The notes below the pieces were generated by a model, which saw nothing but the letters and a program-made list of their open reading frames with translations, ran no database searches and was not told the DNA's origin. From Chloroflexota bacterium (GTDB lineage Bacteria > Chloroflexota > Anaerolineae > Anaerolineales > Villigracilaceae), in assembly GCA_024434165.1 (NCBI GenBank), contig QMIW01000005.1:1-64000 (forward strand): a stretch of 64,000 bases of DNA, written 5' to 3'. Numbering within the stretch: position 1 is the first letter of the stretch; each line of letters opens with the position of its first letter. Positions 19,000 through 63,460 of this stretch are shown piece by piece. The position numbers and the translations under genes were made by a program.

Positions 19000-19053
19000 G
19001 TACGGCGACATTCATGCCGCCATTTGCCAGGCGCGAGATGAATCTCGCGGGAC
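19000..19053 (-). repeat. Two-hairpin stop-codon element (54 bases)
   Basis: GTAC (19000-19003), a first 8-bp hairpin with a 2-base TC loop (19004-19021; its one mismatch is G-U in the minus-strand RNA), spacer, a perfect 8-bp hairpin CGCGAGAT/ATCTCGCG (19032-19049) and GGAC. The stop codon of the next gene (CTA, 19053-19055) begins at the last base. Confidence 0.65.
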
Positions 19054-20198: not shown

Positions 20199-20200
20199 AT

Positions 20201-20941
20201 TTATTTTGCAGGGACGCACTCCGCCCAAATATCCGACCAGCGAATTTCGAAGTGCTTCACGGTCAGCCCGGCTTGCGCCATCTCATCGTAAAAGACTTTC
20301 GGGGAATATTCGAGTTCATGCGTCTCGTCGGTATAGGGAAACAAGCCCAATTTCCTTTTTAGCGCGGCGGCAAGGTTGCGTTCGAACGTGGGCACGCGGA
20401 TGAGGAATTTTTTCGGCTTGAAGCGCGCGGTTAAATCCTTTAGAAATTCGGGGCGGTTTTTCAGGTGTTCCAGCACGCTGGACAACACGATCACATCGAA
20501 GAAACCGCTTTGGGGAATATCCTTGAAGACATCCCCTACCACGAATTGGATATTCGGATGGTTGAATCGTCTCTTTCCAAACTCGATTTGTTCAGAGTCG
20601 AAATCAATCGCCAGCACCTGCGCATCCGAGTGAACTGCGATGGCATGAGCCAGCGCGCCGTAGCCGCAGCCGAGATCGAGCACCCTGGCATTTTTCTCGA
20701 TGCGTTCGTAAAAGAACGAGTGAATGCCATCCATCACTTCATGTTTGATATGCACACCGTCGCCCCAGCGTTTGCACTGCGCGTCAATCTCATAGTTGAC
20801 GAAATCGTACACGCCCAGCAGCCAGCGCACCGCCTCGCGCGGGTCGGCGGAATCCTCCGCGCCGATCATCACTTTGATGATGAACTTCCGCAAGGCGCGC
20901 GGCAAAAGATAATAGGCTGTCTTTCGCAACATCGAACTCAT
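20201..20941 (-). CDS. SAM-dependent methyltransferase, 246 aa
   Basis: ARVLDLGCGYGALAHAIA near residue 84 is the SAM loop, QVLAIDFDSEQI the acidic strand, FDVIVLSSVLEHL motif IV. ATG at 20941 overlaps the stop of the preceding gene by 4 bases; a longer in-frame start at 20971 is less likely. The N-terminal basic-hydrophobic stretch (LRKTAYYLLPRALRKFIIKV) may bind membrane. Probably methylates a sugar of the growing glycan. Confidence 0.8.
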   Translation of the reverse strand: MSSMLRKTAYYLLPRALRKFIIKVMIGAEDSADPREAVRWLLGVYDFVNYEIDAQCKRWGDGVHIKHEVMDGIHSFFYERIEKNARVLDLGCGYGALAHAIAVHSDAQVLAIDFDSEQIEFGKRRFNHPNIQFVVGDVFKDIPQSGFFDVIVLSSVLEHLKNRPEFLKDLTARFKPKKFLIRVPTFERNLAAALKRKLGLFPYTDETHELEYSPKVFYDEMAQAGLTVKHFEIRWSDIWAECVPAK

Positions 20942-29528: not shown

Positions 29529-29541
29529 GTTTTCCTTTTTA

Positions 29542-29614
29542 CCCTCACCCTAGCCCTCTCCCAAAGGGAGAGGGAACTCCCTTCCCCTTTCGGGGGAAGG
29601 GTTAGGGATGAGGG
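29542..29614. repeat. CCCTCACCC / GGGAGAGGG palindromic repeat with two inner hairpins
   Basis: CCCTCACCCTAG (29542-29553) pairs roughly with TTAGGGATGAGGG (29602-29614). Inside are two hairpins: CCCTCTCCC-AAA-GGGAGAGGG (29554-29574) and CCCTTCCCC/GGGGAAGGG (29579-29601 region). It fills the gap between the cytidylyltransferase and transketolase genes. Relatives occur in coding DNA at 41350 and 62603. Confidence 0.7.
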
Positions 29615-29617
29615 AAA

Positions 29618-30364
29618 TTATATTTTCTCTACCTTCGGCAGTTGCGCCTCTCCGCTTGCGGCGAGACGTTCCGCCAGTTCCCAATCGTAGGGACGGTTCA
29701 CATCGAAGCCTTCGTAGCCTTCCGTAAAGAACGGCATGACCACTTCGCCTGCAATCGTCCGTCCGTTGAACACCACGCGCGACCAGGCGATTTCCAGACT
29801 GGCATTCTGCGAATAGACTTCGGGCAATGCCTGATACGGCGTGCTGTGCCAGGGTTGTTCTTTTGGACCCAACGGCAGCAACGGCATCATGCGCCTGCCG
29901 CGCACAACCCACATCTTGCCAGGGTGTTCCCTGCACTTCTCGACAGCGCGCAGCGAATCCACGCCTTCTTCGGTTAAGAATTCCTTCCATGCACGCTGGA
30001 TCGTCGTCGGCAGGCGGAAGGGACTGGTCGGGCGCAGGATGCTGAAGCAGTCATACGCGCGTCCCATTTCCTTGAGTTTGTGAAGCGTGAAGTCAACCCA
30101 CTCGATGTCCAGTGAAAGGTCGCCTGAAATTTCCGCGGGGCGGAGGAAGGGCACCTCTGCGCCATATTGACGGGAAATCTCGGCGTATTCCTCCGAATCC
30201 GTCGAGACAAAAACGGAGGAGAAGATTCCGCTCTGCCGCGCCGCGCAGATGGTGTACGCGATGAGCGGATGTCCTGCCAGCGGGTGGATGTTCTTGCCTG
30301 GCACGCGCTTCGAACCTGAACGCGCAGGAATCAAGGCGATGATCGAAGGGTTGGATTTGCTCAT
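29618..30364 (-). CDS. CMP-sugar cytidylyltransferase (NeuA/LegF family), 248 aa
   Basis: IIALIPARSGSKRVPGKNI near the N-terminus is the CTP-binding signature of CMP-NeuNAc and CMP-Kdo synthetases. FSILRPTSPFRLPTTI and NRPYDWELAERL are usual in the NeuA branch. It activates an acidic alpha-keto sugar with CTP for transfer. It overlaps the aldehyde dehydrogenase gene by 4 bases, and the NeuB-type synthase lies one gene further up, so synthase and activating enzyme are in one transcript. The sugar may be legionaminate-like or something new. Confidence 0.85.
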   Translation of the reverse strand: MSKSNPSIIALIPARSGSKRVPGKNIHPLAGHPLIAYTICAARQSGIFSSVFVSTDSEEYAEISRQYGAEVPFLRPAEISGDLSLDIEWVDFTLHKLKEMGRAYDCFSILRPTSPFRLPTTIQRAWKEFLTEEGVDSLRAVEKCREHPGKMWVVRGRRMMPLLPLGPKEQPWHSTPYQALPEVYSQNASLEIAWSRVVFNGRTIAGEVVMPFFTEGYEGFDVNRPYDWELAERLAASGEAQLPKVEKI

Positions 30365-31821
30365 ACCTGCGTCGGGTCTATGTTGATATAGACGTCCTTC
30401 AACTCGGAATAAATGTTGAGCGCTTCGGTGCCAGGCTCGCGCGAGCCGTTGCCCGAAAGTTTGCGCCCGCCGAACGGCATGTGCGGTTCGGAACCGTACG
30501 TCCCTGCATTGACCACCGCCACGCCCGTCTGTACTTTGTCGTAAAAGCGCGTCGCGCGGTGGATGCTTCTGGTATGGATGCTGGCGGTCAATCCGTACGG
30601 CGTATCGTTTGCCATCGCCAGAGCGTGTTCAAAATCCCTTGCGCGGAACAGGATGGCAATGGGACCGAACAACTCGCACTCCGAAATCTCGTCATGCGGG
30701 TCAACGTTTTCGATCAAGGTCGGCGCCATGTAATAGCCGCCGCGGTGTTCGTCATCGGTCAGGCGGTGTCCGCCGCACAAAATCGTCGCGCCGTTCTTTT
30801 TCGCCTTTTCCACGGCGTTGAGCATGTTGACCAACTGTCCTTCGTTGATGACGGGACCGAAATCGCAGTCGTCCGCAGTGCCAACCTTCAATTTCTTTGT
30901 GCGTTCCACCAGCATATCGCGGAACTTCTCATACACCGATTCAAAAATGATCACGCGGCTAGTCGAAGCGCAGCGCTGACCTGCATTGCTAAAGGCGGAG
31001 AGCAGCACCCATTTGGCGGCGTTCTCCAAGTCGGCATCGTCGCACACCACGAGCGGATTCTTCCCGCCCAGTTCCAGCGAGATGCGCGCGAAGCGCTCCC
31101 CCGCCGCACGCTGGATGATGCGCCCCACTTCCGTCGAACCCGTGAAACTGATCACGCCCACATCGGGGTGTTCCACCAGCGGCGCGCCCGCCTCCTCGCC
31201 ATACCCTTGAAGGATGCTCAACACGCCGTCGGGCAGTCCCGCTTCTTTTGCGATCTGCCCGAAAATCCATGCCGTGGCGGGCGTATCTTCAGCGGCTTTC
31301 AAAATCGCGGCATTGCCGCACACGAGCGCAGGGAACACCTTCCACGCCACGTTCGCAATCGGCGTGTTCGCAGCGATGATGAGTCCCGCCACGCCGATGG
31401 GTTGGCGGATGGTCATCGCATACTTGTTTGCCGCGCCGCTCGTCGTGGTGCGACCATATAGACGTTGACCTTCGCTGGCATAGAACAACCCGCATTGGAT
31501 CGCTCCGCCCGTTTCGCCCAACGCCTCTTTTCTGGACTTTCCAGTTTCGGCGGCGACAATTTCAGCGATCTCACCCTGACGGTTTTGCATCCCCACCACA
31601 ATCTTGTGCAGGATCAATCCACGCTGTACGGCGGGCGTATCCGCCCAGGCAGGCTGGGCGCGTTTGGCGGCTTCCACCGCCTGCTGAATATCCTCACGGC
31701 GTGAGCGCGCGGCGCGGGTGAGCAATTGTCCGTTCGCGGGGTTGAGTTTGTCGAACCACTCATTGGATTGAGCGGGCTGTTCCTGGGTTCCGATCCAGTT
31801 GGGGATTTGGTTGGGGAGCAT
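30361..31821 (-). CDS. NAD(P)-dependent aldehyde dehydrogenase, 486 aa
   Basis: A full ALDH: PIGVAGLIIAANTPIAN near residue 145 supports the cofactor site, FTGSTEVGRII the Rossmann motif, LELGGKNPLVV carries the general-base Glu and NAGQRCASTSRVI the nucleophilic Cys. A longer frame to 31857 exists, but ATG at 31821 has AAAAGG at good spacing and gives the usual family length. It resembles semialdehyde dehydrogenases such as the alpha-ketoglutaric semialdehyde group. Its place between a NeuB-type synthase and a CMP-transferase is unusual and suggests it oxidises an aldehyde in that sugar pathway. Confidence 0.85.
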   Translation of the reverse strand: MLPNQIPNWIGTQEQPAQSNEWFDKLNPANGQLLTRAARSRREDIQQAVEAAKRAQPAWADTPAVQRGLILHKIVVGMQNRQGEIAEIVAAETGKSRKEALGETGGAIQCGLFYASEGQRLYGRTTTSGAANKYAMTIRQPIGVAGLIIAANTPIANVAWKVFPALVCGNAAILKAAEDTPATAWIFGQIAKEAGLPDGVLSILQGYGEEAGAPLVEHPDVGVISFTGSTEVGRIIQRAAGERFARISLELGGKNPLVVCDDADLENAAKWVLLSAFSNAGQRCASTSRVIIFESVYEKFRDMLVERTKKLKVGTADDCDFGPVINEGQLVNMLNAVEKAKKNGATILCGGHRLTDDEHRGGYYMAPTLIENVDPHDEISECELFGPIAILFRARDFEHALAMANDTPYGLTASIHTRSIHRATRFYDKVQTGVAVVNAGTYGSEPHMPFGGRKLSGNGSREPGTEALNIYSELKDVYINIDPTQV

Positions 31822-31863
31822 GGTGTACCTTTTCAATTCCAGTACTGCAACATTCATGTTGCC

Positions 31864-31909
31864 GTATTTCGAGGCGAAGCCATCACCTGCAAGATAAATC
31901 TTGCGGTAC
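31864..31909 (-). repeat. Two-hairpin element, degenerate left half
   Basis: A weak hairpin (TTCG/CGAA near 31867-31878) is followed by a perfect one, GCAAGAT-AA-ATCTTGC (31889-31904), and GGTAC. It sits between the NeuB-type gene's stop (31913) and the aldehyde dehydrogenase start (31821). Confidence 0.6.
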
Positions 31910-31912
31910 GTT

Positions 31913-32959
31913 TTACTTCAAAACCTCAAACGACAAATTCTCATCTTCGAGCAAGTCTTTGGCAAGGACTTTCCCGATCACATTCTCCAACTCATACGGC
32001 GGCAAGCCGTCGCCGGGGGATTTCAGGGCGATGTCCGACTCCGTTAAACGATGACCAGCCTTGAGGTCGCGTGAGGCGACGAGTTTCTTCCCCATCTTGG
32101 AGATGGGATTCAACTCGCTTGGGTAAATCTTCTTTTCGCCGTCGCCGAGGGCAAGGCGCACGCGGCGCAGGTCGCGGACCAGTTTCCGCATCCCGATCGG
32201 TTCGAGCGAGAAGGCATGGTCGGTGCCTTTCCAGGTGTGGTTGAGCGTGAAATGCTGTTCGACGACGCGCGAGCCGAGCACGTACGCCGCCACTGCCATT
32301 GCAATTCCGTTTTCGTGGTCGGAGAGTCCCACCACAATATCGGGGAAACGCTCGCGGTAGGTGGTGATGACGCGCAGATTCAAATCCTGCGGCTCGGCGG
32401 GATAGGACGCCGTGCATTGCAAAAGGCACAACTGCGGGTTGATGGGCATGATGGCATCGTACGCGCGCTGGACATCCTCCATCGTGCCGCCGCCCGTGCT
32501 GACGATCATCGGCTTGCCGAATTTGGCAATATGTTTCAAGAGCGGGGTGTTTTTCAAATCACCGGAAGCGACCTTGTAGACAGGCATGTCGAGCTCGGCG
32601 AGGAAATCCGCGCTGTTGAAATCGAAGGCGGTGGCGAACATGATCAAGCCGAGTTCCTGCGCGTATTTCTTCAACTCGACGTATTCCTCACGCCCGAATT
32701 CCAACGCTTCGCGGTGTTCGCCGTAGGTGGCGCCGAAACTGTTTTCGTTGTCGTACGGTTTGTTGTACGCGGCGCGTGTGAACAGGGATTTGTTATCGCG
32801 CTTTTGCAGTTTGACCGCGTCCACGCCGCATTCCTTCGCAGCTTTGAAGAGTTCCTTCGCCTTTTGCAATTCGCCCTGGTGGTTGTTGCCGATCTCGGCG
32901 ATGACGAAGCAGTCGCTGTCGTCGGAGATGGTGAAACCGTCAATGGTCAGTTTTCGCAT
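31913..32959 (-). CDS. neuB: NeuB-family nonulosonic acid synthase with SAF domain, 348 aa
   Basis: FVIAEIGNNHQGELQKAKEL opens the TIM-barrel; DAVKLQKR, YKVASGDLKN, STGGGTMEDV and GLSDHENG are the NeuB hallmarks, and a C-terminal SAF (antifreeze-like) domain spans about residues 285-348. The enzyme condenses phosphoenolpyruvate with an N-acyl hexose-type aldehyde to give sialic, legionaminic or pseudaminic acid. Which one cannot be told here. It is the first of a set with aldehyde dehydrogenase, cytidylyltransferase and transketolase. AAGGA precedes the ATG. Confidence 0.9.
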   Translation of the reverse strand: MRKLTIDGFTISDDSDCFVIAEIGNNHQGELQKAKELFKAAKECGVDAVKLQKRDNKSLFTRAAYNKPYDNENSFGATYGEHREALEFGREEYVELKKYAQELGLIMFATAFDFNSADFLAELDMPVYKVASGDLKNTPLLKHIAKFGKPMIVSTGGGTMEDVQRAYDAIMPINPQLCLLQCTASYPAEPQDLNLRVITTYRERFPDIVVGLSDHENGIAMAVAAYVLGSRVVEQHFTLNHTWKGTDHAFSLEPIGMRKLVRDLRRVRLALGDGEKKIYPSELNPISKMGKKLVASRDLKAGHRLTESDIALKSPGDGLPPYELENVIGKVLAKDLLEDENLSFEVLK

Positions 32960-32980
32960 GTTGATTCCTTTTCATATTGA

Positions 32981-33002
32981 GGCGCTGGAGAGCGCCAGTT
33001 AC
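32981..33002 (-). repeat. Hairpin with GTTAC tail carrying a stop codon
   Basis: GGCGCT-GGAG-AGCGCC (32981-32996) followed by AGTTAC. TTA at 32999-33001 is the stop codon (TAA) of the minus-strand glycosyltransferase above. It matches the right half of the two-hairpin elements. Confidence 0.6.
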
Positions 33003-34051
33003 GCGCCAATCACAACCTGCCTTCCAGCCAGTTGAAACAAAATATCCCGAAGTTTTTCGTACCCAACATCCTCGAACTTCCGCGTGCCGCCTTTGAGGTG
33101 CATGGCAAACGGTTCGTCCTTCCAGAAGAATTCCTCCCAGCCAAACTCGCCGCGCACATCGAACAACCCGAAATCCTGAAAACGGGCGGAGGCGGTGTAA
33201 TCGCGCCGCTTCGGGTAGATGGAAAGATTCTCCGGCACGAGCAGGCGATACATCCGCGCAAACAAATTCATGAAAAAAGAGTCCTTTTTCGTAAACAGGT
33301 CATTCACAAAAGAAGGCTTGAGCATTTCGACCCTGTGCCTGCGGTCTTTGCCGAACGAGTTCTGGATTTTGAAACCCGTATCGCGGGAAATATTTGTATT
33401 GGGGTAAATCCGCTTTGGAAATAATTTCGAGAGCGGCGCGGCAATCCAGCGATTTCGCAAAATCACGATGGCAATATCCACAAGAACAGATCGCCTCACT
33501 TCTTTAACTGGCGGCGGGATTCTGCCCATCAACATTCCCAGCAGCGTGAGGGTGGAGTATTCAAACAACGTATGGTATTCATCCAGTTCGGGGGTGAAAT
33601 CCAGTTCTGCTCTGGCGACTTTTTCCAGGTCAATCAACATGCACGAGACGGTGGGGAAATAGCGCCGCTTCCAGGTCAAATCGGGATAGTAAGGCGCGCC
33701 CCAAAAACTCAGGTTACGGCTTTCCATGTGCGCCAACACGTCTGCAATCCAGTTTTCCCGAAAGATGAAAAAGTCGGGGTCGAGCGCCAGCAAATAACGG
33801 GTGGACACGTACTGCAAGGCTTTATTCAACGCCTGCGCGTGGTGATAACTGCCCTTCAACCTGCCCTGATTGATGCACGGATCGCCTTCGATGACCTCAA
33901 AATCCCTCGCTTCATGTTTCGGAAAATCGTGGTTGTTGTCCACGACCAGCCAGCGAAAACTCGAAGCGGGGTTCAACTCTCTGGTCAGAGTCAGGTTCAA
34001 GTCCAGAAGCGAGGCGCTGTTGAAGGAGACGGTGCAGATGGTCAAATCCAT
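32999..34051 (-). CDS. Glycosyltransferase family 2, 350 aa
   Basis: MDLTICTVSFNSASLLDLNL is a GT-A opening; FRWLVVDNN, the ALNKALQYVST segment and YLLALDPDFFIF with an acidic metal site follow. The long C-terminal part (about 200-350) is not typical and contains many basic and aromatic residues. A longer frame to 34408 overlaps the ABC ATPase and is not used; ATG at 34051 has AAGGA within the preceding stop context. It follows wzt by 8 bases, which suggests it acts on the ABC-exported polymer. Confidence 0.75.
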   Translation of the reverse strand: MDLTICTVSFNSASLLDLNLTLTRELNPASSFRWLVVDNNHDFPKHEARDFEVIEGDPCINQGRLKGSYHHAQALNKALQYVSTRYLLALDPDFFIFRENWIADVLAHMESRNLSFWGAPYYPDLTWKRRYFPTVSCMLIDLEKVARAELDFTPELDEYHTLFEYSTLTLLGMLMGRIPPPVKEVRRSVLVDIAIVILRNRWIAAPLSKLFPKRIYPNTNISRDTGFKIQNSFGKDRRHRVEMLKPSFVNDLFTKKDSFFMNLFARMYRLLVPENLSIYPKRRDYTASARFQDFGLFDVRGEFGWEEFFWKDEPFAMHLKGGTRKFEDVGYEKLRDILFQLAGRQVVIGA

Positions 34052-34059
34052 TTGAATCC

Positions 34060-35361
34060 TTATGCAGGCTTGACCAGTTCCGAGGTCCAATCCAGTTTGG
34101 GACGGACGACGCCGGAGAAAGTACCTGTGATTTTTCCACGCACTGAATCGCCCTCCAGCGAGTCGAACACGTTGAGCGAGATGGCGTCGTCCATGGCGAT
34201 GCCTTTTTGCGAGAGGCGCGAGAAGCCCCAAAACACCACACGGATGGAGTATGTGCCTTCGACCAGCAGGTTGCCCGGAATCCAGCATGTGCTGCGATAC
34301 ACGCCGCGCGCGATCTTCGCGTTCTCCCAATTCGGGTGCGCGTCGGCGGGCGAGTTGAAGATGACCACGTTGTTCATGTCCTTGAGGATGACCGAAGGCG
34401 TGAACCAAACATCGGGTTGCAGGACTTCGTATTCCAACTCGATGCCGATGGGATGGCGAATGTCGAATGCCGATTTCGTTTCGTTTTGCGAGTCGTGCGC
34501 GCGGATTCCGAGAAAACGCACAATGCCATTGGTCGGCGCCTGGTTTTCGTTCCAGCGCATTTGCGGTTCGATCTGCAATGCCATCTGAAAATACGTGGCA
34601 AGGATGGATTCCACTTCGCCCTGCGCCACTGCCTGACCCCGATCCAAAAGCAGCGCGCGGTCACACAACGCGGAAACGGCGGTCATGTTGTGGCTGACGA
34701 ATAAGACCGTCCGCCCGCCGCTTGCCACTTCGCTCATTTTGCCGAGACATTTCTTTTGAAACTCTGCGTCGCCCACCGCCAGCACTTCATCCACCACCAG
34801 AATTTCAGGTTCGAGGTGCGCGGCGACGGCAAACGCGAGGCGCACGTACATGCCGCTGGAATATCGTTTGACGGGCGTGTCAATGTAGCGGTCTACGCCG
34901 GAGAACGCTACGATCTCATCGAGCTTGCGGCGGACTTCCGCGCGGCTCATGCCCATGATCGCGCCGTTGAGGAAGATGTTCTCCCGTCCGGTCAATTCGG
35001 AGTGAAACCCGGTTCCGACTTCGAGGAGGCTTGCGATGCGCCCCCTGGCTTTTACCACGCCTGAGGTGGGCGCCGTGACCCGCGAGAGAATCTTGAGCAG
35101 TGTGCTTTTGCCTGCGCCGTTGCGCCCAATGATGCCAATCGCTTCGCCGCGCTGGACAGCAAAGTTGATATCGCGCAGCGCCCAGACGGTTTCACCGTTG
35201 CGGTTCCCGTGATCCTTTTCGCCGATCTTCTGGTAGGGATCGGGCTTGCCGCGCAGTTTTGCCCACCAGCGTTTGACATCGCCGTAAAACGTGCCAGTGC
35301 CGATGGCGCCCAGTTGATAAGACTTCGAGAGATTCTCGATGGAAATGACCGTGTCGCTCAT
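34060..35361 (-). CDS. wzt: Polysaccharide ABC exporter ATPase with carbohydrate-binding C-domain, 433 aa
   Basis: The ATPase domain (about 1-255) has Walker A GRNGAGKS, signature YSSGMYVRLAFAVA and Walker B ILVVDEVLAVGD. Residues about 270-433 form a beta-rich Wzt_C-type domain that in known systems recognises the polymer's non-reducing-end cap. Many methyltransferases in the cluster could make that cap. A long open frame upstream to 36270 is a shadow through the permease; the ATG at 35361 overlaps the permease stop by one base. Acts in the inner membrane with Wzm. Confidence 0.9.
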   Translation of the reverse strand: MSDTVISIENLSKSYQLGAIGTGTFYGDVKRWWAKLRGKPDPYQKIGEKDHGNRNGETVWALRDINFAVQRGEAIGIIGRNGAGKSTLLKILSRVTAPTSGVVKARGRIASLLEVGTGFHSELTGRENIFLNGAIMGMSRAEVRRKLDEIVAFSGVDRYIDTPVKRYSSGMYVRLAFAVAAHLEPEILVVDEVLAVGDAEFQKKCLGKMSEVASGGRTVLFVSHNMTAVSALCDRALLLDRGQAVAQGEVESILATYFQMALQIEPQMRWNENQAPTNGIVRFLGIRAHDSQNETKSAFDIRHPIGIELEYEVLQPDVWFTPSVILKDMNNVVIFNSPADAHPNWENAKIARGVYRSTCWIPGNLLVEGTYSIRVVFWGFSRLSQKGIAMDDAISLNVFDSLEGDSVRGKITGTFSGVVRPKLDWTSELVKPA

Positions 35362-36221
35362 CACACCGTATCCATGAACGTGGCTTCGACGCGGTTGAAG
35401 ATCAACACGCCGATCAGCAGGATGATTGCCATAAAGCCCAGGCTGTAGAAAAGGTACAGGGGGCTGAGTCCGCTCACCCCGAGGAAAGCGAGGCGAAAGA
35501 CTTCCACAACGGCGGTCATCGGGTTGGCGATCACCAGCCATTGCCAGTTCCCCTGCAAACTGGAAATCGGGTAAATGACCGGCGTGGCGTACATCAGCAA
35601 TTGCACGCCGAAGCCGATGAGCTGTTGAAGGTCGCGGTATTTGGTCGTCAACGAAGAGACGATGATGCCCGTGCCAAGTCCCAATCCCGCCATGATGAGC
35701 AGTAACAGCGGCAGGGAGGCAATCCACCAATTTGGGCGGATGTCCGCGCCGATGACGATGAAGTAAACCAGGAAACCCAAAAACACGCCGAGGCGGATGC
35801 CGAATGAAATGATGTTGGAAAGCACAATCGAGACTGGGATGGTCAGGCGCGGGAAATACACCTTGCCCAAAATGGCGGCGTTCGAGGTGAAGGTGGTGGA
35901 GGTGCTTGTGAGGCACGCGGCAAAATAACTCCACACCGTGTTGCCCGCCAGATAAAAGAGAAACGGCGGCAAGCCGTCGGTGGAGAGCTGCGCGATGTTG
36001 CCAAAGATGACGGTGAAGACCACCGTCGTCAGAATCGGCTGGATCAAATACCACAACGGACCCAAAATGGTCTGTTTGTAATAGGCGACAAAATCGCGCC
36101 ACACAAAAAGCATGACCAGGTCGCGGTATTGCCACAACTCGCCCAGCCGCAAATCCCACCACGCTCGCTGCGGGCGGATGATCATTGTCCAGTTTTCCTG
36201 TTCGGAGGTTTGTAATTCCAT
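35361..36221 (-). CDS. wzm: ABC-2 type polysaccharide export permease, 286 aa
   Basis: An ABC-2 permease with about six membrane segments. LFVWRDFVAYYKQTILGPLW and IQPILTTVVFTVIFG are the conserved N-terminal blocks of the Wzm/TagG/KpsM group. It pairs with the downstream ATPase. It exports a polymer fully assembled in the cytoplasm, in contrast to the Wzx route at 54 kb. ATG at 36221; an internal ATG 12 codons in is an alternative. Confidence 0.9.
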   Translation of the reverse strand: MELQTSEQENWTMIIRPQRAWWDLRLGELWQYRDLVMLFVWRDFVAYYKQTILGPLWYLIQPILTTVVFTVIFGNIAQLSTDGLPPFLFYLAGNTVWSYFAACLTSTSTTFTSNAAILGKVYFPRLTIPVSIVLSNIISFGIRLGVFLGFLVYFIVIGADIRPNWWIASLPLLLLIMAGLGLGTGIIVSSLTTKYRDLQQLIGFGVQLLMYATPVIYPISSLQGNWQWLVIANPMTAVVEVFRLAFLGVSGLSPLYLFYSLGFMAIILLIGVLIFNRVEATFMDTV

Positions 36222-36242
36222 ATCTTATGCTCAAGCCGCCAT

Positions 36243-36265
36243 CTCGACGGCGAGACGCCGCCGAG
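36243..36265 (-). repeat. Intergenic hairpin, 10-bp arms with AGA loop
   Basis: CTCGACGGCG (36243-36252) and CGCCGCCGAG (36256-36265). The single mismatch becomes G-U in the minus-strand RNA. It occupies the gap between the wbpE stop (36280) and the wzm start (36221). Confidence 0.5.
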
Positions 36266-36279
36266 AGCAAACGTTCAAA

Positions 36280-37377
36280 TCAACCAACAAATTCCTTCAC
36301 CGCCGCGATGACCTCATCCTGCTGTTCCAGCGTCAATTCGGGATACAGCGGCAGCGCCAGCGTTTCGCGCGCGGCTTGCTCCGCGTGCGGGAAGTCGCCT
36401 TCCTTGTAACCAAACTTGCGGCACGGTTCGGCAAGATGCGGCGGGATCGGGTAATACACTTCCGAGGCAATCCCTTTTTGTTTCAAAAATGCCTGCAACT
36501 CATCACGCTTCTTTGAGCGGACGATATACAGGTGATACACATGTTTCGCCCATTCGCATTCCATCGGAGTCGCAACGCCAAGCGGCGCGAGATGCTCGGT
36601 GTATCGTCGAGCCAGTTGGCGGCGTTTTTCGTTCCACGCATCCACATGCGGGAACTTCGCCTGCAAAATCGCGGCTTGCAGCGCATCGAGTCGGCTGTTG
36701 TAACCGACCTCTTCCGAATAATATTTTTTCTTCCAGCCGTGCGTCCGCAGCATCCGCATCCGTTCGGCAAGCGCGGGGTCGTTCGTCAACACCATGCCGC
36801 CGTCGCCGTACGCGCCGAGGTTCTTGGTCGGGAAAAAACTCAAACAGCCGATGTCGCCGAGCGCGCCAGTTTTCCTCCCAAGATATTCCGCGCCGTAGCC
36901 CTGCGCGTTGTCCTCGATCACTTTCAAGCCGTGCTCGCGCGCAATCTCCAAAATCGGATTCATCTCCGACGGATGCCCGTACAAATGCACGGGGATGATC
37001 GCTTTCGTGCGCGGCGTGATTGCAGGCTTGATTTTGCTCACGTCAATTTGATACGTCTGCGGGTCCACATCCACAAACACGGGCTTCGCGCCCACCGACA
37101 TCACCGTGCCAGCCGTCGCAAAGAACGTGTACGCGGGAATGATCACTTCATCGCCCGCGCCGATGTTCAATGCGCGCAGCGCGATCACCAGCGCATCCGT
37201 GCCCGAAGCCAGCCCAATTGCATGTTTGACTCCGAGATGCGCCGCGACGCTTTCCTCGAACTTCGTCACCTGCGGACCCAAAATGAAATGACCCGACTCC
37301 AGCGTGGATGAGACCGCCGCGTCAATTTCGTTTTTGATGGCATGATATTGCGCCGTCAAATCAACCAATGAAATCAT
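36280..37377 (-). CDS. wbpE: PLP-dependent sugar aminotransferase, WbpE type, 365 aa
   Basis: A DegT/DnrJ/EryC1 family aminotransferase: [31 protein letters not shown] and the PLP-lysine block [29 protein letters not shown] near the start is typical. With the wbpB and wbpD genes directly upstream it should convert UDP-3-keto-GlcNAcA to the 3-amino sugar. ATG at 37377 overlaps wbpD's stop by 4 bases; an upstream frame to 37434 is not used. A LegC-like role is less likely given these neighbours. Confidence 0.85.
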
Positions 37378-37955
37378 TCTTCGCCTCTCTCTGGACGGAC
37401 GACCTGGTCCTGTTTCCTGTAAGCGTCTCCACACCTGGAGCAGACCGCGCGCCCGCCCTCAAAGGTCAACTGCTCGCCGCACTGGCACATCCAGCCGTGC
37501 AGCCGTGCAGGCGTCCCATACACCAGTGCGTAATCGGGGACATCCTTCGTCACCACCGCGCCCGCGCCGACAAAGCAATACCTGCCCAGCGTCACGCCGC
37601 AGACGATGGTGGCATTCGCGCCGATGGTCGCGCCCTTGCGGACAAGCGTGGTCCTGTACTCGTCCTTGCGGCTGATGTGACTGCGCGGGTTGACGACGTT
37701 GGTAAAAACCATCGAAGGACCGAGAAAAACATCGTCTTCCACGATCACGCCCGTATAGAGCGAGACGTTGTTCTGGATTTTGACATTATTCCCAATCGTC
37801 ACATCCGAGGCGACCAGCACGTTTTGACCGATGTTGCAGCGCTCGCCGATTTTTGCATTCGGCATGACGTGACAGAAATGCCAGATCTTTGTCCCCGCGC
37901 CGATCTGCGCGCCTTCGTCTATGTAACTGGATTCGTGAACAAAATAATCAGGCAT
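37374..37955 (-). CDS. wbpD: WbpD-type N-acetyltransferase, 193 aa
   Basis: A left-handed beta-helix protein built of hexapeptide repeats ([19 protein letters not shown], then [26 protein letters not shown]). [18 protein letters not shown] is the WbpD loop. It acetylates the 3-amino group made by WbpE, using acetyl-CoA. The C-terminal tail (about 155-193) has CQCGEQL and CSRCGD, four cysteines that look like a zinc ribbon and are not needed in the core family. Confidence 0.85.
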
Positions 37956-37967
37956 GATTGCTTTCTC

Positions 37968-38016
37968 GTACCGCGAAATTCATTTTGCGTGCGGCGCAAG
38001 ATAAATCTTGCGTTAC
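37968..38016 (-). repeat. Two-hairpin stop-codon element, 49 bases
   Basis: GTAC, then hairpin CGCGAAAT-TC-ATTTTGCG (37972-37989, one wobble on the plus strand), spacer, perfect hairpin CGCAAGAT-AA-ATCTTGCG (37995-38012), TTAC. TTA at 38013-38015 is the stop codon of the wbpB gene. Same length and internal spacing as the element at 42678. Confidence 0.75.
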
Positions 38017-38954
38017 GGTCTCAACAACGGATGCGACAACTCATCCTTCGGCGAAATCTGCGCCGCGCGGATTTTGTAGGTCAACTCAATCGAAGGGCGC
38101 GCGTCGCGGATGCCAAAGCCGCGCCCGGCAAGGGTTTCTTCATAGACCTTTGTATGCAGGTCGGTAAAACCTTCCGAGAACTCGATCTCTTTGCCATCCA
38201 CCGTGATGGAACGGTAGGTGGTCTTGTTCGCGGACTTCGCCTGCTGCGGCAGGTCATTTTTGTCCACGGAAAGGAACCAGCGTACACGCGCGCGTTCCAA
38301 TTCGATGAAGCCCGACATGCGCTCATCGTCCGCGTGATAGACCTTGATGCCGTTCACCGAACCAAACAGCCACATCAGCAGGTCGAAAAAGTGGATGCCG
38401 ATGTTCGTCGCCACGCCGCCCGATTTTTCGGCTTGTCCCTTCCACGAGACCTGGTACCACGGTCCGCGGCTGGTGATGTAGGTCAGTTCCACGTCATGGA
38501 CAGCGGCGTCGCCTTGCAGCGACTCGCGGAGTTGAATCAGGCTGGGGTGGACACGCAGCTGCAAGATGGTGTTGATGCGGCGTCCGGTCTCGGCTTCCAG
38601 CTCGGCGAGGGCATCCAAATTCCAGGGGTTGATCACCAGCGGTTTTTCGCAGATCACATCCGCGCCAACGCGCAGGGCAAGGCGGCAGTGGGCATCGTGT
38701 AAATAGTTCGGCGAACAAATCGAAACGTAATGGACGCGGTCCGCTTCGGGTCCGCGGCGCAGTTTTTCGAGGTGGCGGTCGAAGCGTTCGATCTCGGTAA
38801 AGAATTTCACGTCGAACGAATATTGGTCGAGGATGCCGACCGAGTCTTTTGGGTCCACGGCGGCGAGCAGGCGGTTGCCCGTGTCGCGGATGGCGCGCAG
38901 GTGACGCGGCGCGATGTACCCGCCCACGCCGATCACGGCAAAGTTCTTCGTCAT
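38013..38954 (-). CDS. wbpB: UDP-N-acetyl-2-amino-2-deoxyglucuronate dehydrogenase, WbpB type, 313 aa
   Basis: A Gfo/Idh/MocA oxidoreductase: FAVIGVGGYIAPRHLRAI binds NAD, CEKPLVINPWNLDAL carries the catalytic Lys, and QLRVHPSLIQL with GGVATNIGIHFFDLL matches the WbpB/WlbA group, which oxidises the 3-OH of UDP-GlcNAcA. ATG at 38954 overlaps the regulator's stop by 4 bases and has AGGA upstream. Its own stop codon lies inside a palindromic element. Confidence 0.9.
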   Translation of the reverse strand: MTKNFAVIGVGGYIAPRHLRAIRDTGNRLLAAVDPKDSVGILDQYSFDVKFFTEIERFDRHLEKLRRGPEADRVHYVSICSPNYLHDAHCRLALRVGADVICEKPLVINPWNLDALAELEAETGRRINTILQLRVHPSLIQLRESLQGDAAVHDVELTYITSRGPWYQVSWKGQAEKSGGVATNIGIHFFDLLMWLFGSVNGIKVYHADDERMSGFIELERARVRWFLSVDKNDLPQQAKSANKTTYRSITVDGKEIEFSEGFTDLHTKVYEETLAGRGFGIRDARPSIELTYKIRAAQISPKDELSHPLLRP

Positions 38955-39424
38955 GATTTTCCTCGCAGCCGCCGCACTTGATAATCCTGCCCTTTGACCT
39001 CCAGCGCCACTTCTTCGGGAATGTTGCTGACTTGAATCCCCGCCTCGATGCAGGTCAAGCGGATGATGTCCATCATTTCATCGTCGCCGTTGAGGTAGAC
39101 CTTGTTGATGCCTTGTTTTTGCAGGTCGGCAACCACTGTTTTTGCCTTTTGGCGGAATTGCCCGTACACCTTGAGCGAATCGCGCGCGTAGGACATGGCG
39201 CGCTGGGTGAAGACCTTCATGCCTTCGGGGGTGAGATCGTATTTGAGGCGGGTGCGGTCGAGGTGCGAGACCTTGACCCAGCCGCGATGGATGAGGCGTT
39301 TGATGTACCAGTTGACGCTGCCGACAGCAATGCCCAGGCGGTTGGAGAGATTCGCCTGGGTCACCATCGAGTCTTGCGCAATTTCATTGAGAAGGGCGTA
39401 TTCGTGCTGTTTGACTTCGGACAT
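38951..39424 (-). CDS. MarR/EPS-type winged-helix regulator, 157 aa
   Basis: Residues about 5-75 are a winged helix-turn-helix (HEYALLNEIAQDSMVTQANL, then GIAVGSVNWYIKRLIHRGWV) of the type annotated as EPS-associated MarR regulators. Those are usually near 105 residues; here a C-terminal segment (about 100-157) adds a small alpha/beta domain with NKVYLNGDDEMMDIIRLTC, perhaps for ligand binding or dimerisation. It is the first gene before wbpB-wbpD-wbpE-wzm-wzt and overlaps wbpB by 4 bases. Its promoter lies in a perfect inverted repeat, so autoregulation is likely. No ribosome site is visible. Confidence 0.8.
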   Translation of the reverse strand: MSEVKQHEYALLNEIAQDSMVTQANLSNRLGIAVGSVNWYIKRLIHRGWVKVSHLDRTRLKYDLTPEGMKVFTQRAMSYARDSLKVYGQFRQKAKTVVADLQKQGINKVYLNGDDEMMDIIRLTCIEAGIQVSNIPEEVALEVKGQDYQVRRLRGKS

Positions 39425-39474
39425 GTGCGAGAATTCAGTTTTTGAATTCTCGCACAGAAATCCCCCACTGTCAA
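39424..39474 (-). promoter_or_regulatory. Promoter with overlapping 14-bp inverted-repeat operator of the EPS regulator
   Basis: On the minus strand TTGACA (39469-39474) and GAGAAT (39446-39451) are 17 bases apart. A perfect inverted repeat, TGTGCGAGAATTCA with a 5-base loop (39424-39456), covers the -10 and runs to the first base of the ATG. It can act as an operator on DNA and as a hairpin at the start codon in RNA. Confidence 0.65.
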
Positions 39475-39507
39475 GTTGGCGGGATGAGGGCGAATCCTGC
39501 GGTTCCC

Positions 39508-40641
39508 CTACGATTCGCCAATGGCTTCCCGCATCATGCTCTCGTACTGGTCCACGATCTTTTGAATGTCGAAATCCCGCGCCTTCTCCAAACTGGCGCG
39601 GCGGAAGCGGAGCAAATGTTCGCGGTTGGTGAGCAACTCGCGCAGGGCATTTGAAAACGCCGCCTGGTCTTTCACTTCGATCAGAAAGCCGTTCTTATCT
39701 TCTTCCACCAAATCCAAAAAGCCTCCGATCTTGCTGGCAACGATGGCAAGCCCCTTCACCAACGCCTGCACGCCAACAACAGGCAACCCTTCCGTATGCG
39801 AGGGCATGAAAAGAATGTCGCTTTTTGAAAATTCGTTCAGCACGTCATCAGGCGTGACCCAGCCGGGCAGGTGAAAGCGCCCGGTCATGCCGTGTTTTTC
39901 GATTTCCTGTTTCACTTCCTCGAACATCGGACCGTCGCCGAGCATCGAACACGTCCAATCCAAATCCTTGAGCACGGCAAGCACGCGGACAATTGCCAGC
40001 GGATTTTTCTGGTTCACAAAACGCCCCGCAAAGACGATGCGCGGCGGACGATTCAACTCGACGTGGTCGGGGACAAGGTGCATAAAATCCGCGCCGTTGG
40101 GAACGACGCGAATCTCCACAGGATAATGCTTCAACGCCAGCTGCCGCGTGAACTCGCTCACCGCGATCACACGCTTCGCCCGTTTCCAAATCGGCTTGGT
40201 GAACGGCTCGATCCAGCCGAACCAATAGGCGGTTTTTTCCGGCACGCCGCCCGGCACGTCGCCGAGATGTGCGGTCAAAATGTACGGCACGCCCGTCAGC
40301 ACGGACAAGGCAAACGCCAGCGCGCCCGAAGGCACGGCAAAGTGCGTGTGAATGATGTGCGGGCGAAAACGCCATATCAAGAGCAAACCCGGCACAAACC
40401 CCGCAAGCACATAGGAAAGCATCGTCTGAAAACTTGCCGAAAACGGTTCGGTGCGCCGCGAGCGAATCCGCACCAGGCGAATCCCATCGCGGATTTCCTC
40501 GCGCGGCAGGCTGTCCATGTGCGCGGTCAGCACAGTCACTTCATGCCCGCGCGCCACGAGTTCGCGGCAGATGTCATACGCGGCTCTGCCTCCGCCCCCG
40601 CCGATGGGTGGAAATTCATAGATGACAGTGAGGATGCGCAT
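39508..40641 (-). CDS. Glycosyltransferase family 4, 377 aa
   Basis: MRILTVIYEFPPIGGGGGRA is the glycine-rich GT4 start. PPRIVFAGRFVNQKNPLAI opens the donor domain and EGLPVVGVQALVKGLAIVA is the EX7E region, here with Gln in place of the second Glu (EGLPVVGVQ), which may matter for activity. Cytoplasmic; acts on a lipid-linked glycan. One base separates it from the 666-aa membrane protein upstream in transcription. Confidence 0.8.
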   Translation of the reverse strand: MRILTVIYEFPPIGGGGGRAAYDICRELVARGHEVTVLTAHMDSLPREEIRDGIRLVRIRSRRTEPFSASFQTMLSYVLAGFVPGLLLIWRFRPHIIHTHFAVPSGALAFALSVLTGVPYILTAHLGDVPGGVPEKTAYWFGWIEPFTKPIWKRAKRVIAVSEFTRQLALKHYPVEIRVVPNGADFMHLVPDHVELNRPPRIVFAGRFVNQKNPLAIVRVLAVLKDLDWTCSMLGDGPMFEEVKQEIEKHGMTGRFHLPGWVTPDDVLNEFSKSDILFMPSHTEGLPVVGVQALVKGLAIVASKIGGFLDLVEEDKNGFLIEVKDQAAFSNALRELLTNREHLLRFRRASLEKARDFDIQKIVDQYESMMREAIGES

Positions 40642-40642
40642 G

Positions 40643-42643
40643 TTATTCCGAAAACGGGTCCTTGCATTCCACCTGCCGGGACCGCGGCTCGAAAACCTGG
40701 ATGTTGTTCGATGTCAGCGTGACGACAGGTTTGTAATTGCATAACAGCGGCGCGCCCACAAAACGCACCCACGCTACGTTTTCCTCCACAAACGCACCTT
40801 CTTTTTGTTCCGTAAACTTCTGGTCTTCGGCAACGATCAAGTCGAAGCGGCGTGCGCGCAGGTCGGCGTAATAATTTTCAAGATAGACGCGGTTGCGCGA
40901 CATCGCCATCTCCATCAATTCCATTTGTTCGTATTCCGGCACGAGCCTCACGCCGTGCAAATCATCGAACGTGATCAACTGCCGCTCGGTGATGAACAAA
41001 ATCTCGCCGCCGTTTTGAATCGCCTCCTGCAATCTTTGAATGTCCTTCTCTGCAATGGTTTTGTCGTAGGATGGGAAAAAGCCGATGTGACGTATCGCAA
41101 ACCCAAGCGGAATCAGCAATGCAGCGAACGCCACGCCCCAGCCGATTCGTCCATCCATCGGCTGCGCATCTTTCTCCGGGGAAGCCTGCTTCGCCCAAAG
41201 GGACGTAGTCAACAGGGACAGCATGACCAAATACGCATCCATGTTGTGCAAGTCCCCGCCGCCGCCGATCTTCGTACTGACCACCACCCCGCCGGCGAAC
41301 AACAAAAAAAGCATGGCAAGCAAAGCCAGCCAGCGCAGCGGATGCAAAGCCCTCACCCCTATCCCCTCTCCCTTTGGGAGAGGGGGATTTCGCAGCATTT
41401 GATACAACGCAGCGAACAACGGCGCGGAAACCAGCAAAATCCCCGGCAGGATTCCCATCGGAAAGGTCTCATTCGGGAGCAGGCGGCTCCAAATCAAATC
41501 GGATGTGAAACTGGAGCCAAACGCGGAAAGGTCGGGGCTGCCCGAAATTCGGATGTAAACGAACTGCGAGATCAACGCCGCCGCGAGTCCGCTTGCGCCC
41601 CAAATGAAGGGAGTGACCCAATATTTCCAGCCTTTGTCATTGATTGGTGTTTCCAAAATGTAAATCGCAATCGCCAGCATCGCCGGGACCGGGAACCAGT
41701 TCACGCGGCTGATTCCCGCCCAGAGCGAGGCGAGGACGATGAAAATCAGCGAGCGCCATTGATGCTTCACCGACACGCCCGCCAGGATCAAAATCACCAT
41801 CACCTGCAAGTGATAGTACACCGCGCCCTGCAAAAAGAATAAAAACGCCCAGGCGGTGATGAGAACCGTCATACCACTTCGTGGCACGTTCCCATTGCTC
41901 AATTTCATTCTTCGGGCAAGGAGGAAGGATGCAGCGAGCGTCAGTCCGAACCAAAGGAATGCCTGCCAAAAACGATGGAACCATAGCGGCAAACCATCAA
42001 TCAAAAACGGAATGGACAAGAGCAAATACCGCGAGGGATGCAAAAACGGAAGCGGGAGTTCCATCCCATAAAGTTTTTCGGAGAAAAATAATGAAGCGTA
42101 ATAATGCCGCCCCGCTTCGGAGTAGCCCATCGAAAACGGATTGGCGGAGGTGATGGAAAAAATGCCGTAGGTCTGGTAGATCATCCCCTGCGCCAGCAGG
42201 ACAATTGCGAAGGCAGTGTGCCATTCCAATTTGCGAATCAATTTCAAGCCGATGGTTTGAATCAGGCTTGCCCACAGGAAGACCCACAAAATCGGCATGA
42301 CTTGCGGAAGGATGTTCCCGAATACCTGCAATCGAACGAACCAGACCGAGGTAAACCCGCCCAACACCAGCAAAACGCCTGCAAGGGAAAGCAAAGGCTT
42401 GGGGTGTGAACCAAGTTCACTGAAGTACGAGGCGAGGCGGTCCAAAAGCGGTGAACGAGCAAGCCACGCGGCGGCAAGTGCCGTCAACGCAAAGACGCCC
42501 ACCAAGCCGATCCACTTGGAGCGCAGAAGGGCAATTTCCAACTCGTTCGTGCGTTGAATCGTCTGGGGAATCGCCAGCAGGCTGACGACAACCAGAGACC
42601 ACAGCCATGTTTGCAGGAATTTTTTGGTGGAGACGGATTCCAT
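40643..42643 (-). CDS. Large polytopic membrane protein, paralogue of the 7.7-kb gene, 666 aa
   Basis: About twelve membrane segments followed by a soluble tail. It shares STKIGGGGDLHNMD and the ERQLITFDD tail block with the 699-aa protein. In the loop before the shared motif it carries NPPLPKGEGIGVRA, which is the in-frame translation of a palindromic repeat (41350-41385) and which the paralogue lacks. No named family recognised; GT-C transferase or polymerase-like by topology. Each of the two paralogues is preceded on the mRNA by another membrane or sugar gene and followed by a family 4 glycosyltransferase. Confidence 0.6.
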   Translation of the reverse strand: MESVSTKKFLQTWLWSLVVVSLLAIPQTIQRTNELEIALLRSKWIGLVGVFALTALAAAWLARSPLLDRLASYFSELGSHPKPLLSLAGVLLVLGGFTSVWFVRLQVFGNILPQVMPILWVFLWASLIQTIGLKLIRKLEWHTAFAIVLLAQGMIYQTYGIFSITSANPFSMGYSEAGRHYYASLFFSEKLYGMELPLPFLHPSRYLLLSIPFLIDGLPLWFHRFWQAFLWFGLTLAASFLLARRMKLSNGNVPRSGMTVLITAWAFLFFLQGAVYYHLQVMVILILAGVSVKHQWRSLIFIVLASLWAGISRVNWFPVPAMLAIAIYILETPINDKGWKYWVTPFIWGASGLAAALISQFVYIRISGSPDLSAFGSSFTSDLIWSRLLPNETFPMGILPGILLVSAPLFAALYQMLRNPPLPKGEGIGVRALHPLRWLALLAMLFLLFAGGVVVSTKIGGGGDLHNMDAYLVMLSLLTTSLWAKQASPEKDAQPMDGRIGWGVAFAALLIPLGFAIRHIGFFPSYDKTIAEKDIQRLQEAIQNGGEILFITERQLITFDDLHGVRLVPEYEQMELMEMAMSRNRVYLENYYADLRARRFDLIVAEDQKFTEQKEGAFVEENVAWVRFVGAPLLCNYKPVVTLTSNNIQVFEPRSRQVECKDPFSE
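41350..41385. repeat. In-frame palindromic repeat inside a coding region
   Basis: CCCTCACCCCTAT followed by a perfect hairpin CCCCTCTCCC-TTT-GGGAGAGGGG (41363-41385). Same family as 29542-29614. It is read as part of the 666-aa membrane protein. Confidence 0.7.
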
Positions 42644-42677
42644 AAGATTATGTATTGCGCGTGAAATGAGTTTCGCA

Positions 42678-42726
42678 GTACCGTGAGATTTCTCTCACAC
42701 AGGGTGCAAAATGAATTTTGCGTTAC
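42678..42726 (-). repeat. Two-hairpin stop-codon element, 49 bases
   Basis: GTACC, hairpin GTGAGA-TTTC-TCTCAC (42683-42698), spacer, hairpin GCAAAAT-GA-ATTTTGC (42706-42721), GTTAC. TTA at 42723-42725 is the stop codon of the flippase-like gene. Confidence 0.75.
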
Positions 42727-43619
42727 TCCTCCTTCATCGCCGCCAGAATGGACGGCAGGAAGAATGCCCCCGGCAGGCTGGCAGTCACGAACAGGACGCG
42801 CGTCAGCAGGGCGATGGTAGCGCTTTCGGAGGAGGTCAGCCCGCCGAGTTGAACGAGCAGGAAGGTCATGGAGAGTTCCTGCACGCCCAAGCCGTTGATG
42901 GAAATGGGAATGAGCGTGACGAAATACGTCAGCGTGTACATGCCCGCCACCAGCCAATAGGATAGACGATGGTCTATGCCGAGCAGGAGCAGGTAGATCA
43001 TCAGGTAAATGAACAATTGATTGCCGAGCGTGGCGAGCAGCGCGCCGCCCAGTCCCGCCGGCTTTTTCAGCCAGATGGAAAAGGCTTCCAGCGTCCGCCT
43101 GGCAAAACCCATGCCCTTTTGGAACAAGCCAGCCAGCGTGAACGATTGCGCCAGCGCGCCGTCCAAAGAAAACAGCGGAATCAAACCCAAAGGCAGGGCA
43201 ACCGTCATTCCCGCCATCCCAATCAGCCGGTCCGCGACCAGGGAGGCGAGGCAGATGGCGCGGTCATAGCCCATTTGCATCGCGCCGCCCAGCCGCACCA
43301 CGTCCCCGCCGATGGTTGTCGGTAAAAAATTGGAGGAAAAATTGCCGGTGAACATCAACATGACCGCCCGCAAAAACGGAATCTTCACCCCCGCGGATCG
43401 AAGCAAAACGTACCAGCGCGTCGCGGCGAAAATGCGCGAGACCAGCAGCGCGAGGAGCGCTGCCAATAAATACACAATGGAGACGCGGCGCAGCGCCGAA
43501 AACAGCTGCCCATCCCCCTCTTCCTGAATCAGAATCAACAACAATGCCAGCGCCAGCAGGCTGCCCAAGCCGCGCACGACGGTCTGGCGGTTTTCACGCA
43601 GCCATTTAATCATCGTCAT
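42723..43619 (-). CDS. Lysylphosphatidylglycerol synthase TM-like (UPF0104) membrane protein, 298 aa
   Basis: About seven to eight membrane segments. LAALLALLVSRIFAATRWYVLL, then FSSNFLPTTIGGDVVRLGG and VLVDRLIG-like AS-L-ADRLIG blocks are the hallmarks of the flippase-like UPF0104/LPG_synthase_TM family. Members move lipids or support lipid-linked sugar transfer. It overlaps the dolichol-phosphate-mannose-synthase-like gene by 14 bases, a common pairing, so it may flip or bind the polyprenyl-phosphate sugar made by that enzyme. ATG at 43613 is an alternative start. Confidence 0.8.
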   Translation of the reverse strand: MTMIKWLRENRQTVVRGLGSLLALALLLILIQEEGDGQLFSALRRVSIVYLLAALLALLVSRIFAATRWYVLLRSAGVKIPFLRAVMLMFTGNFSSNFLPTTIGGDVVRLGGAMQMGYDRAICLASLVADRLIGMAGMTVALPLGLIPLFSLDGALAQSFTLAGLFQKGMGFARRTLEAFSIWLKKPAGLGGALLATLGNQLFIYLMIYLLLLGIDHRLSYWLVAGMYTLTYFVTLIPISINGLGVQELSMTFLLVQLGGLTSSESATIALLTRVLFVTASLPGAFFLPSILAAMKEE

Positions 43620-57454: not shown

Positions 57455-57514
57455 GTACGGCAGCCCTTTGTTTTCGCGGCGCAGCCGGCGTTCGCAAGAT
57501 AAATCCTGCGGTAC
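57455..57514 (-). repeat. Two-hairpin element, 60 bases
   Basis: GTAC at 57455-57458, a degenerate left part, then CGCAAGAT-AA-ATCCTGCG (57493-57510; its mismatch is G-U on the minus strand) and GTAC. It ends one base before the stop codon of the uracil-DNA glycosylase gene (57515). Confidence 0.6.
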
Positions 57515-63359: not shown

Positions 63360-63424
63360 TCGAGTAGTCTGGCAGTCGAATAGTCTGATAGTCTGGTAGT
63401 CTGGTAGTCGAATAGTCGAGTTGT
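63357..63424 (+). repeat. Degenerate 8-base tandem array, left arm
   Basis: Units such as CGAGTAGT, CTGGCAGT, CGAATAGT, CTGATAGT and CTGGTAGT follow one another from the stop codon of the Crp/Fnr gene. The consensus is C-K-R-R-T-A-G-T. It is the inverse of the array at 63460. Confidence 0.7.
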
Positions 63425-63428
63425 CAAT

Positions 63429-63460
63429 AGCCGTGGAGTCGCAAGCTCTGCGGCTGTTTT
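63429..63460 (+). terminator. Intrinsic terminator after the Crp/Fnr gene
   Basis: AGCCG (63429-63433) and CGGCT (63451-63455) with inner GAG/CTC pairs form a hairpin followed by GTTTT. It lies between the two inverted 8-base arrays. Confidence 0.55.

Follow-up and report, generated by a model that had tools for sequence, protein, structure and literature searches.

GTAC-tagged paired hairpins in an Anaerolineales genome are probable REPINs

REPINs (doublets of REP, repetitive extragenic palindromic, units) are paired small hairpins that are spread within bacterial genomes by a RAYT (REP-associated tyrosine transposase). The stretch analysed here, hereafter the window, comprises 64,000 nucleotides of a Chloroflexota bacterium of the order Anaerolineales (contig QMIW01000005.1, positions 1 to 64,000) and carries several two-hairpin elements, two of them exactly 49 bases long (37968-38016 and 42678-42726). 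Very probably (roughly 0.86), these elements are REPINs, i.e., non-autonomous mobile DNA made of two inverted REP units, whose tag is mainly GTAC. Their anatomy, copy number, covariation, element-free orthologous sites and co-occurrence with RAYT genes, together with the grouping of GTAC-flanked RAYTs on a tree, were observed directly. The initial annotation had proposed either a REP- or MITE-like family (MITE, miniature inverted-repeat transposable element) or selected hairpins of the 3′ untranslated region (3′-UTR) that also end translation; the inverted pairs, the approximately 110 hairpins, the sites without the element and the association with RAYT genes single out REP among these.

Anatomy of the elements

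Sequence comparison showed that both 49-base elements are built to one plan, with the length and the two hairpins initially described. Each REP unit, read inward from the element end, opens with a 4-base tag (mostly GTAC), followed by the first arm of an 8-bp stem, a loop of 2 bases (usually TT or TC) and the second arm. As the second unit is a reverse-complemented version of the first, the 49-base element is an inverted pair. The element at 37968-38016 is composed of a REP unit at 37968-37989 (plus strand, GTAC), a spacer and a REP unit at 37995-38016 (minus strand, GTAA), and that at 42678-42726 of units at 42678-42699 (plus strand, GTAC) and 42705-42726 (minus strand, GTAA), again around a spacer. 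An extra REP unit at 42660-42681 (minus strand) has the GTAC at 42678-42681 in common with the latter element. Another REPIN is present at 19000-19053, with GTAC on its left and GTCC on its right, and one with a long, 24-base spacer (31864-31887) is present at 31842-31909. Among the related copies listed initially, 19000 was thus upheld, while 31864 is the spacer start of the 31842-31909 REPIN and 57455 marks the vicinity of a degenerate left partner, the single intact REP unit there being at 57493-57514 (minus strand).

Repetition of the REP unit was far above that in shuffled sequence. Within the window, a 22-base REP scan with a threshold of ≥17 of 22 gave 12 matches, compared with a mean of 0.05 and a maximum of 1 in 20 dinucleotide shuffles, although it covers both strands, so that one hairpin can count twice, and its consensus derives partly from the window copies themselves. 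Alignments of 23 pairs and 52 single units were built. In 44 distinct units, the fraction of stem cells that pair is 93.2%, compared with 85.7% after shuffling and 17-52% after sliding; both sides have changed in 5 of the 8 stem pairs, in agreement with the compensatory stem change claimed initially. In addition, 75 interior inverted pairs within 60 nt were listed, a few places perhaps twice, with spacers of 4-13 nt in 69. Rfam covariance models at their gathering score gave no match in the window.

The remaining two listed copies, at 17054 and 32981, follow the same plan with different stems and 4-base loops, and we take them, as read by eye, to represent a second REP family. The former is a REPIN-like pair at 17054-17120 with the loops CTCT and AGAG, GTAC on the left and CTAC on the right, and the latter is a single unit at 32981-33002 (minus strand) with the loop CTCC.

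Copy number and spread among genomes

The search for further copies with a covariance model, as suggested in the initial annotation, found them both across the genome and in relatives. In the own 4.4-Mb genome, a unit model trained on this genome's copies gave 139 matches at E ≤ 1 among 150 candidates scored, 112 of them below 0.01, corresponding to about 110 different hairpins. With a pair model at E ≤ 0.01, matches were found in 15 of 24 same-genus relatives and in 3 of 16 genomes from other genera of the order, with more than one match only in G029. Of the 57 genus genomes in a larger set (own included), 38 had matches at E ≤ 1e-4. The R2-model counts, which include both strands and at most 143 (24 + 16 relatives) or 103 (57 genomes) candidates per genome, serve to order the genomes, not to give copy numbers. 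Single REP units also occur alone, and tandem arrays of three (G017), five (G005) and at least three (G067) copies exist.

Association with RAYT genes

A PF01797 search of the own genome gave three matches, while a search with a RAYT alignment gave 27 matches at E < 1e-50 in 15 of the 57 genus genomes, two of them RAYTs of the own genome (on C101 and C110). All six RAYT proteins tested match NF047646 (REP-associated tyrosine transposase), three of them above its cut-off, and PDB 4er8 is a structure related to RAYT proteins. Genomes with at least 40 REPIN matches account for 13 of the 15 with a RAYT but 3 of the 42 without (Fisher 2e-8, kinship ignored), and for 8 of 9 versus 1 of 28 among genomes that are ≥90% complete; the median number of REPIN matches is 68 in RAYT genomes and 2 in the others. 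Moreover, a GT-tagged hairpin was found near each gene end in 17 of 17 RAYT loci, and a narrower flank scan gave GT-tagged units on both sides of 19 of 28 RAYTs and on at least one side of all 28, both scans having no shuffled control. The own palindrome of the C110 RAYT was found at 6 further places in the own genome. As a separate observation made by eye, the TAG of the RAYT gene itself lies at the start of the downstream REP unit in L303, L357, L359 and L360, either within a GTAG tag or using the G of GTAC.

Other candidate enzymes were rejected. An IS200-type TnpA (L031) lies in a 3.3-kb locus without any unit of the GTAC REPIN family. A protein of ~536 aa with a Y1_Tnp domain near its C-terminus (L032, G000:C66:31048-31404) is followed by one unit, yet like frames of 530-560 aa with this domain exist in genomes without a REPIN match (e.g., G004, G006, G021 and G023). 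Such frames are common in the genus genomes searched, and the L032-type proteins suggest a domesticated HUH domain. Three other Y1_Tnp genes (L113, L159 and L164), which have a different C-terminal motif, are without such units. Downstream of these three genes, and in G017 at the site of the window's 19000 element, another GTAG-tagged repeat type (GTAGGGGCG...) was noticed.

The GTAC tag and the RAYT tree

Hairpins that were chosen without regard to the tag carried GTAC in 31 of 67 cases in the own-genome DNA sampled (GTAA 8, GTGC 6, GTAG 3), where part of the loci had been retrieved by likeness to GTAC copies, and in 88 of 178 cases in all DNA sampled (GTAG in 10 of 178). The main tag is thus not the GTAG (or GTGG) usual in REPs, and the family is filed as a tag variant.

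On a tree of 28 RAYTs, the five with GTAC flanks (G005, G019, G022, G050 and G067) form one clade with support 100/99, a grouping equalled by 0 of 500 label shuffles. The labels were taken from the flank scans, a RAYT being labelled GTAC if any flanking unit was GTAC; among rows so labelled, L301, L305 and L306 also have GTAG, GTAA, GTGC or GTAT units, and L361 and L362 also have GTAG units. In the remaining 23 RAYTs, the reported flank units are never GTAC (L331, L334 and L336 were reported on one side only). Named genomes added at least five further Anaerolineales RAYTs, all within the GTAC clade and four of them with GTAC units, as well as at least three RAYTs of Poribacteria, likewise with GTAC units, that branch separately. 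A second tree, from which L366 was left out and in which L364 and L365 are unlabelled (the flanks of L365 were not scanned), needs two tag changes among its labelled rows, and one more if L364 is counted as GTAG.

Orthologous sites with and without the element

The check for empty sites at orthologous junctions proposed in the initial annotation did reveal sites without the element, while the exact boundary was not fixed. The 37968 junction was compared with 10 orthologues and the 42678 junction with 5, with flanks that are 62-85% identical. At the former, eight orthologues are without the element (G014, G010, G009, G013, G012, G029, G031 and G005; ≤25 bases unaligned), a REPIN is present in G001, and a different hairpin is found in G006. 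Read by eye, the gene at this junction ends in TTG AAG AAA TAA in the element-free G005 and in TTG AGA CCG TAA in the window. The last codons differ and the codon position of the stop is unchanged; the TAA in the window could be either the old stop or tag-borne. At the 42678 junction, three orthologues (G014, G001 and G010) are without the element, the REPIN present in G005 has different stems, and in G003 there is a longer tract including a GTAC unit.

A closer relative, G017, was also compared. In this comparison 40 elements were kept (41 in the gene-context count below, duplicates having been removed differently), 12 of which have an orthologous place with flanks that are 82-96% identical. 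Seven of the 12 are common to both genomes, among them a rebuilt array and a unit that is inverted in place; two places hold another hairpin (19000 and L018), two neighbouring units are missing (L040), and one place (L025) is a coding-sequence look-alike. At L016:1498-1523, a single hairpin unit is reversed between G000 and G017 with unchanged flanks (GTAG...TTAC versus GTAA...CTAC), as if it had flipped in place.

Gene context, stop codons and rival explanations

The elements lie mainly between genes, often near 3′ ends, and a tag containing TAA or TAG can serve as the stop codon of a gene. Of the 41 elements in ~0.3 Mb of own-genome DNA, 29 are flanked by tandem genes, 2 by convergent and 3 by divergent genes, 4 fall within predicted open reading frames and 3 at contig or locus edges; these context counts are approximate, as the gene calls were made with a home-made codon-usage caller, which overlooks some genes (e.g., 800-2860). 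The initially suspected bias to gene ends was borne out, with the stop overlapping the element in 9, and lying within 10 nt in 8, of the 38 gene 3′ ends that face an element. One of the nine overlapping stops (L007) is probably a gene-call error, five are wholly within a GTAA or GTAG tag, and three use the first G of the tag.

The stops initially assigned to window elements were all located as claimed. The TAA of the gene at 38013-38954 (minus strand) lies at 38013-38015 within the GTAA tag of the 37968 REPIN, and the TAA of the gene at 42723-43619 is held by the GTAA tag of the minus-strand unit at 42705-42726. In the second REP family, the TAG of the gene at 17117-18034 lies within the minus-strand GTAG of the 17054-17120 pair, and the TAA of the gene ending at 32999 within the minus-strand GTAA of the 32981-33002 unit. 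The TAG of the gene at 19053-20228 (minus strand) starts on the last base of the 19000 REPIN and overlaps it by this one base. Both the supply of stop codons by REP tags and the closeness to gene 3′ ends are known traits of GTAG REPs, according to PMC3733652.

Such a context could also be expected of selected 3′-UTR RNA hairpins, acting in gene expression as terminators, as mRNA stabilisers or as stop-codon cassettes and repeated by convergence or occasional copying, an explanation that is improbable here. The predominance of places between tandem genes agrees with it, and one window unit (31887-31906) fits a looser terminator-like pattern. However, when the 10 sides of five window elements were examined, 9 had no TTTT within 12 nt after the tag, so that these elements do not fit a Rho-independent terminator (GC-rich hairpin plus T-run), and a terminator-like scan of 31000-43500 gave 19 matches versus 17.5 in shuffles. 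Stop-bearing tags are commoner among gene-abutting tags (5 of 16) than among others (4 of 55; Fisher p 0.023, counted by hand). The comparison is circular in part, because a gene will end at any tag that has an in-frame stop, and its support for selection of a stop-bearing tag where the element abuts a gene is modest. Selection might likewise be read from the 37968 site in G017, where two fully compensated stem pairs differ between flanks that are 93 and 92% identical; but the G017 version is another common copy of the same REP family, and therefore conversion between copies is as likely an explanation as selection. Furthermore, sites vary among species, the spread is patchy and tied to RAYT, and tandem arrays reach up to 5 copies. 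The 3′-UTR reading is accordingly superfluous, and such a role would be at most a side effect of REPINs. Still less probable are MITEs that a double-strand DDE transposase would move, GTAC being their target duplication, which would account for small, inverted elements with GTAC at both ends of many copies, but GTAC belongs to single hairpin units and is common to adjoining tandem copies, single units stand alone, and RAYT genes are bracketed by same-plan units (DDE transposases were not searched for).

A possible guide switch

By analogy with published REP work, the RAYT (TnpA-REP, an HUH tyrosine nuclease) would recognise tag and hairpin on single-stranded DNA, cut near them and rejoin the element elsewhere. 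We infer that the GTAC-flanked RAYTs move the GTAC REPINs and cut at G|T. According to PMC8266576, the Marinomonas enzyme cuts at CT and CA with GTAG, while GTAC substrates are cut at GA and GT. If the clade follows the Marinomonas pairing rule, GTAC would hold both guide and cut site (G|TAC), and since GTAC reads alike on both strands, each element end would also be a ready target. Tandem copies would then share exactly one GTAC because GTAC element ends serve as targets. Exactly one GTAC is indeed common to both units in 14 of 17 different tag-to-tag junctions (18 were listed, L305 and L356 being one place), although 3 of the 14 (window, G017 and G005) are at one orthologous site and the unit score includes the tag, which favours GTAC. 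These junctions, which include those of the tandem arrays in G017, G005 and G067, fit insertion at G|TAC, short of proof.

It is tentatively proposed, at somewhat less than even odds, that a natural guide switch has taken place, in which RAYTs of Anaerolineales, and separately of Poribacteria, use GTAC where relatives use GTAG and their cut changed from C|T to G|T; the direction from GTAG to GTAC is assumed, the trees being unrooted. At the position aligned to E. coli 102, the nine GTAC rows labelled within Anaerolineales have Y, 22 of the 23 other rows have V, F or I, and the Poribacteria rows have C; this position was chosen post hoc as one of six columns from a scan of all columns for clade-specific letters. 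The E. coli RAYT contacts its guide through W94, Q95, E100, H101 and R104 (PMC6006769), and a change at the aligned position, beside these residues, may be part of the switch.

A number of observations weigh against the REPIN explanation as put together here. Both RAYTs of the own genome (C101 and C110) have GTAG-tagged flanks, and no cognate RAYT for the window's GTAC family was found. Three REPIN-rich genomes are without a RAYT (G015, which is 95% complete with 102 matches, G049 and G003), while G044 and G045 have a RAYT but 2 and 4 REPIN matches. Within the GTAC clade, L364 is without a GTAC unit, its reported unit being GTAG. In the stem comparison, which covered four of the genomes with GTAC-flanked RAYTs (G022, G005, G019 and G067; G050 also has such a RAYT), the best REPIN matches in G005, G019 and G067 mostly differ in stem from the RAYT-flank units, with which they agree in the GTAC tag; the search model was trained on the stems of the window genome and favours those stems in other genomes. 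In G005, closer stems occur in the REPIN at the 42678 junction and in one array, and in G022 the flanking unit of the RAYT agrees in tag and stem with both REPINs looked at. L364 and these stem differences also make the guide switch less probable. According to PMC8266576, the E. coli enzyme accepts no altered tag, and with GTAC the S. maltophilia enzyme no longer cuts. The seven elements common with G017 imply that many copies are not recent. Finally, no empty site among the comparisons (37968 with 10, 42678 with 5 and G017 with 12) fixed the exact element boundary, and as neither the flanks nor the other hairpins in G017 (19000 and L018) did so, GTAC is a putative target.

Other repeats in the window

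A stretch of ~76 nt at 29541-29621 with CCCTCTCCC/GGGAGAGGG palindromes has copies that are 89-95% identical in G001, G005, G009, G012, G018 and G020, well above most other matches of those genomes to the same query, and is, judging from these copies, a second interspersed repeat. As well, two mutually inverted blocks of degenerate 8-base tandem repeats are present at 63357-63585, with 69-nt arms that are 77% complementary.

Relation to known systems and implications

The closest known systems are the GTAG/GTGG REPINs and BIMEs (bacterial interspersed mosaic elements) with their RAYTs. According to PMC3733652, PMC6006769 and PMC2817692, these share with the present family a short hairpin preceded on its 5′ side by a 4-base tag, an arrangement in inverted doublets, a high copy number, mostly intergenic placing near 3′ ends, a hairpin-bracketed RAYT gene and stop-supplying tags, whereas the tag here is mainly GTAC. 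A version of the Marinomonas REPtron engineered to carry GTAC (PMC8266576) has the same guide and is cut at GT and GA; however, it is a made substrate, while GTAC here is natural and found beside RAYT genes that group on a tree. The IS200/IS605 family likewise has an HUH tyrosine enzyme, subterminal hairpins and guide tetranucleotides (PMC6006769), but the element here is without an internal transposase, and the IS200 model matched 1 of 6 RAYTs scanned, far below its cut-off.

GTAG repeats have been reported in Chloroflexi (PMC3733652). A natural GTAC-tagged REP family was not found among the papers listed from the literature searched, most subscription papers lying outside it, and GTAC was met with there only in engineered form (PMC8266576). 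The automatic REP search described in PMC6006769 was based on the GTAG and GTGG families, other structures being identified manually, and could for this reason have missed a GTAC family. Unexpected here, and apparently new, are mainly the GTAC tag and the GTAC-flanked RAYT clades, the REP plan and the stop supply being already known.

How RAYTs choose their cut site is still open, since in vitro one enzyme accepted guide mutants and two others did not (PMC8266576). If the switch is true, a natural lineage with another guide and GTAG relatives in the same genus would provide enzyme/hairpin pairs for tests of guide recognition. Moreover, the GTAC family suggests that surveys relying on GTAG or GTGG overlook some REP families.

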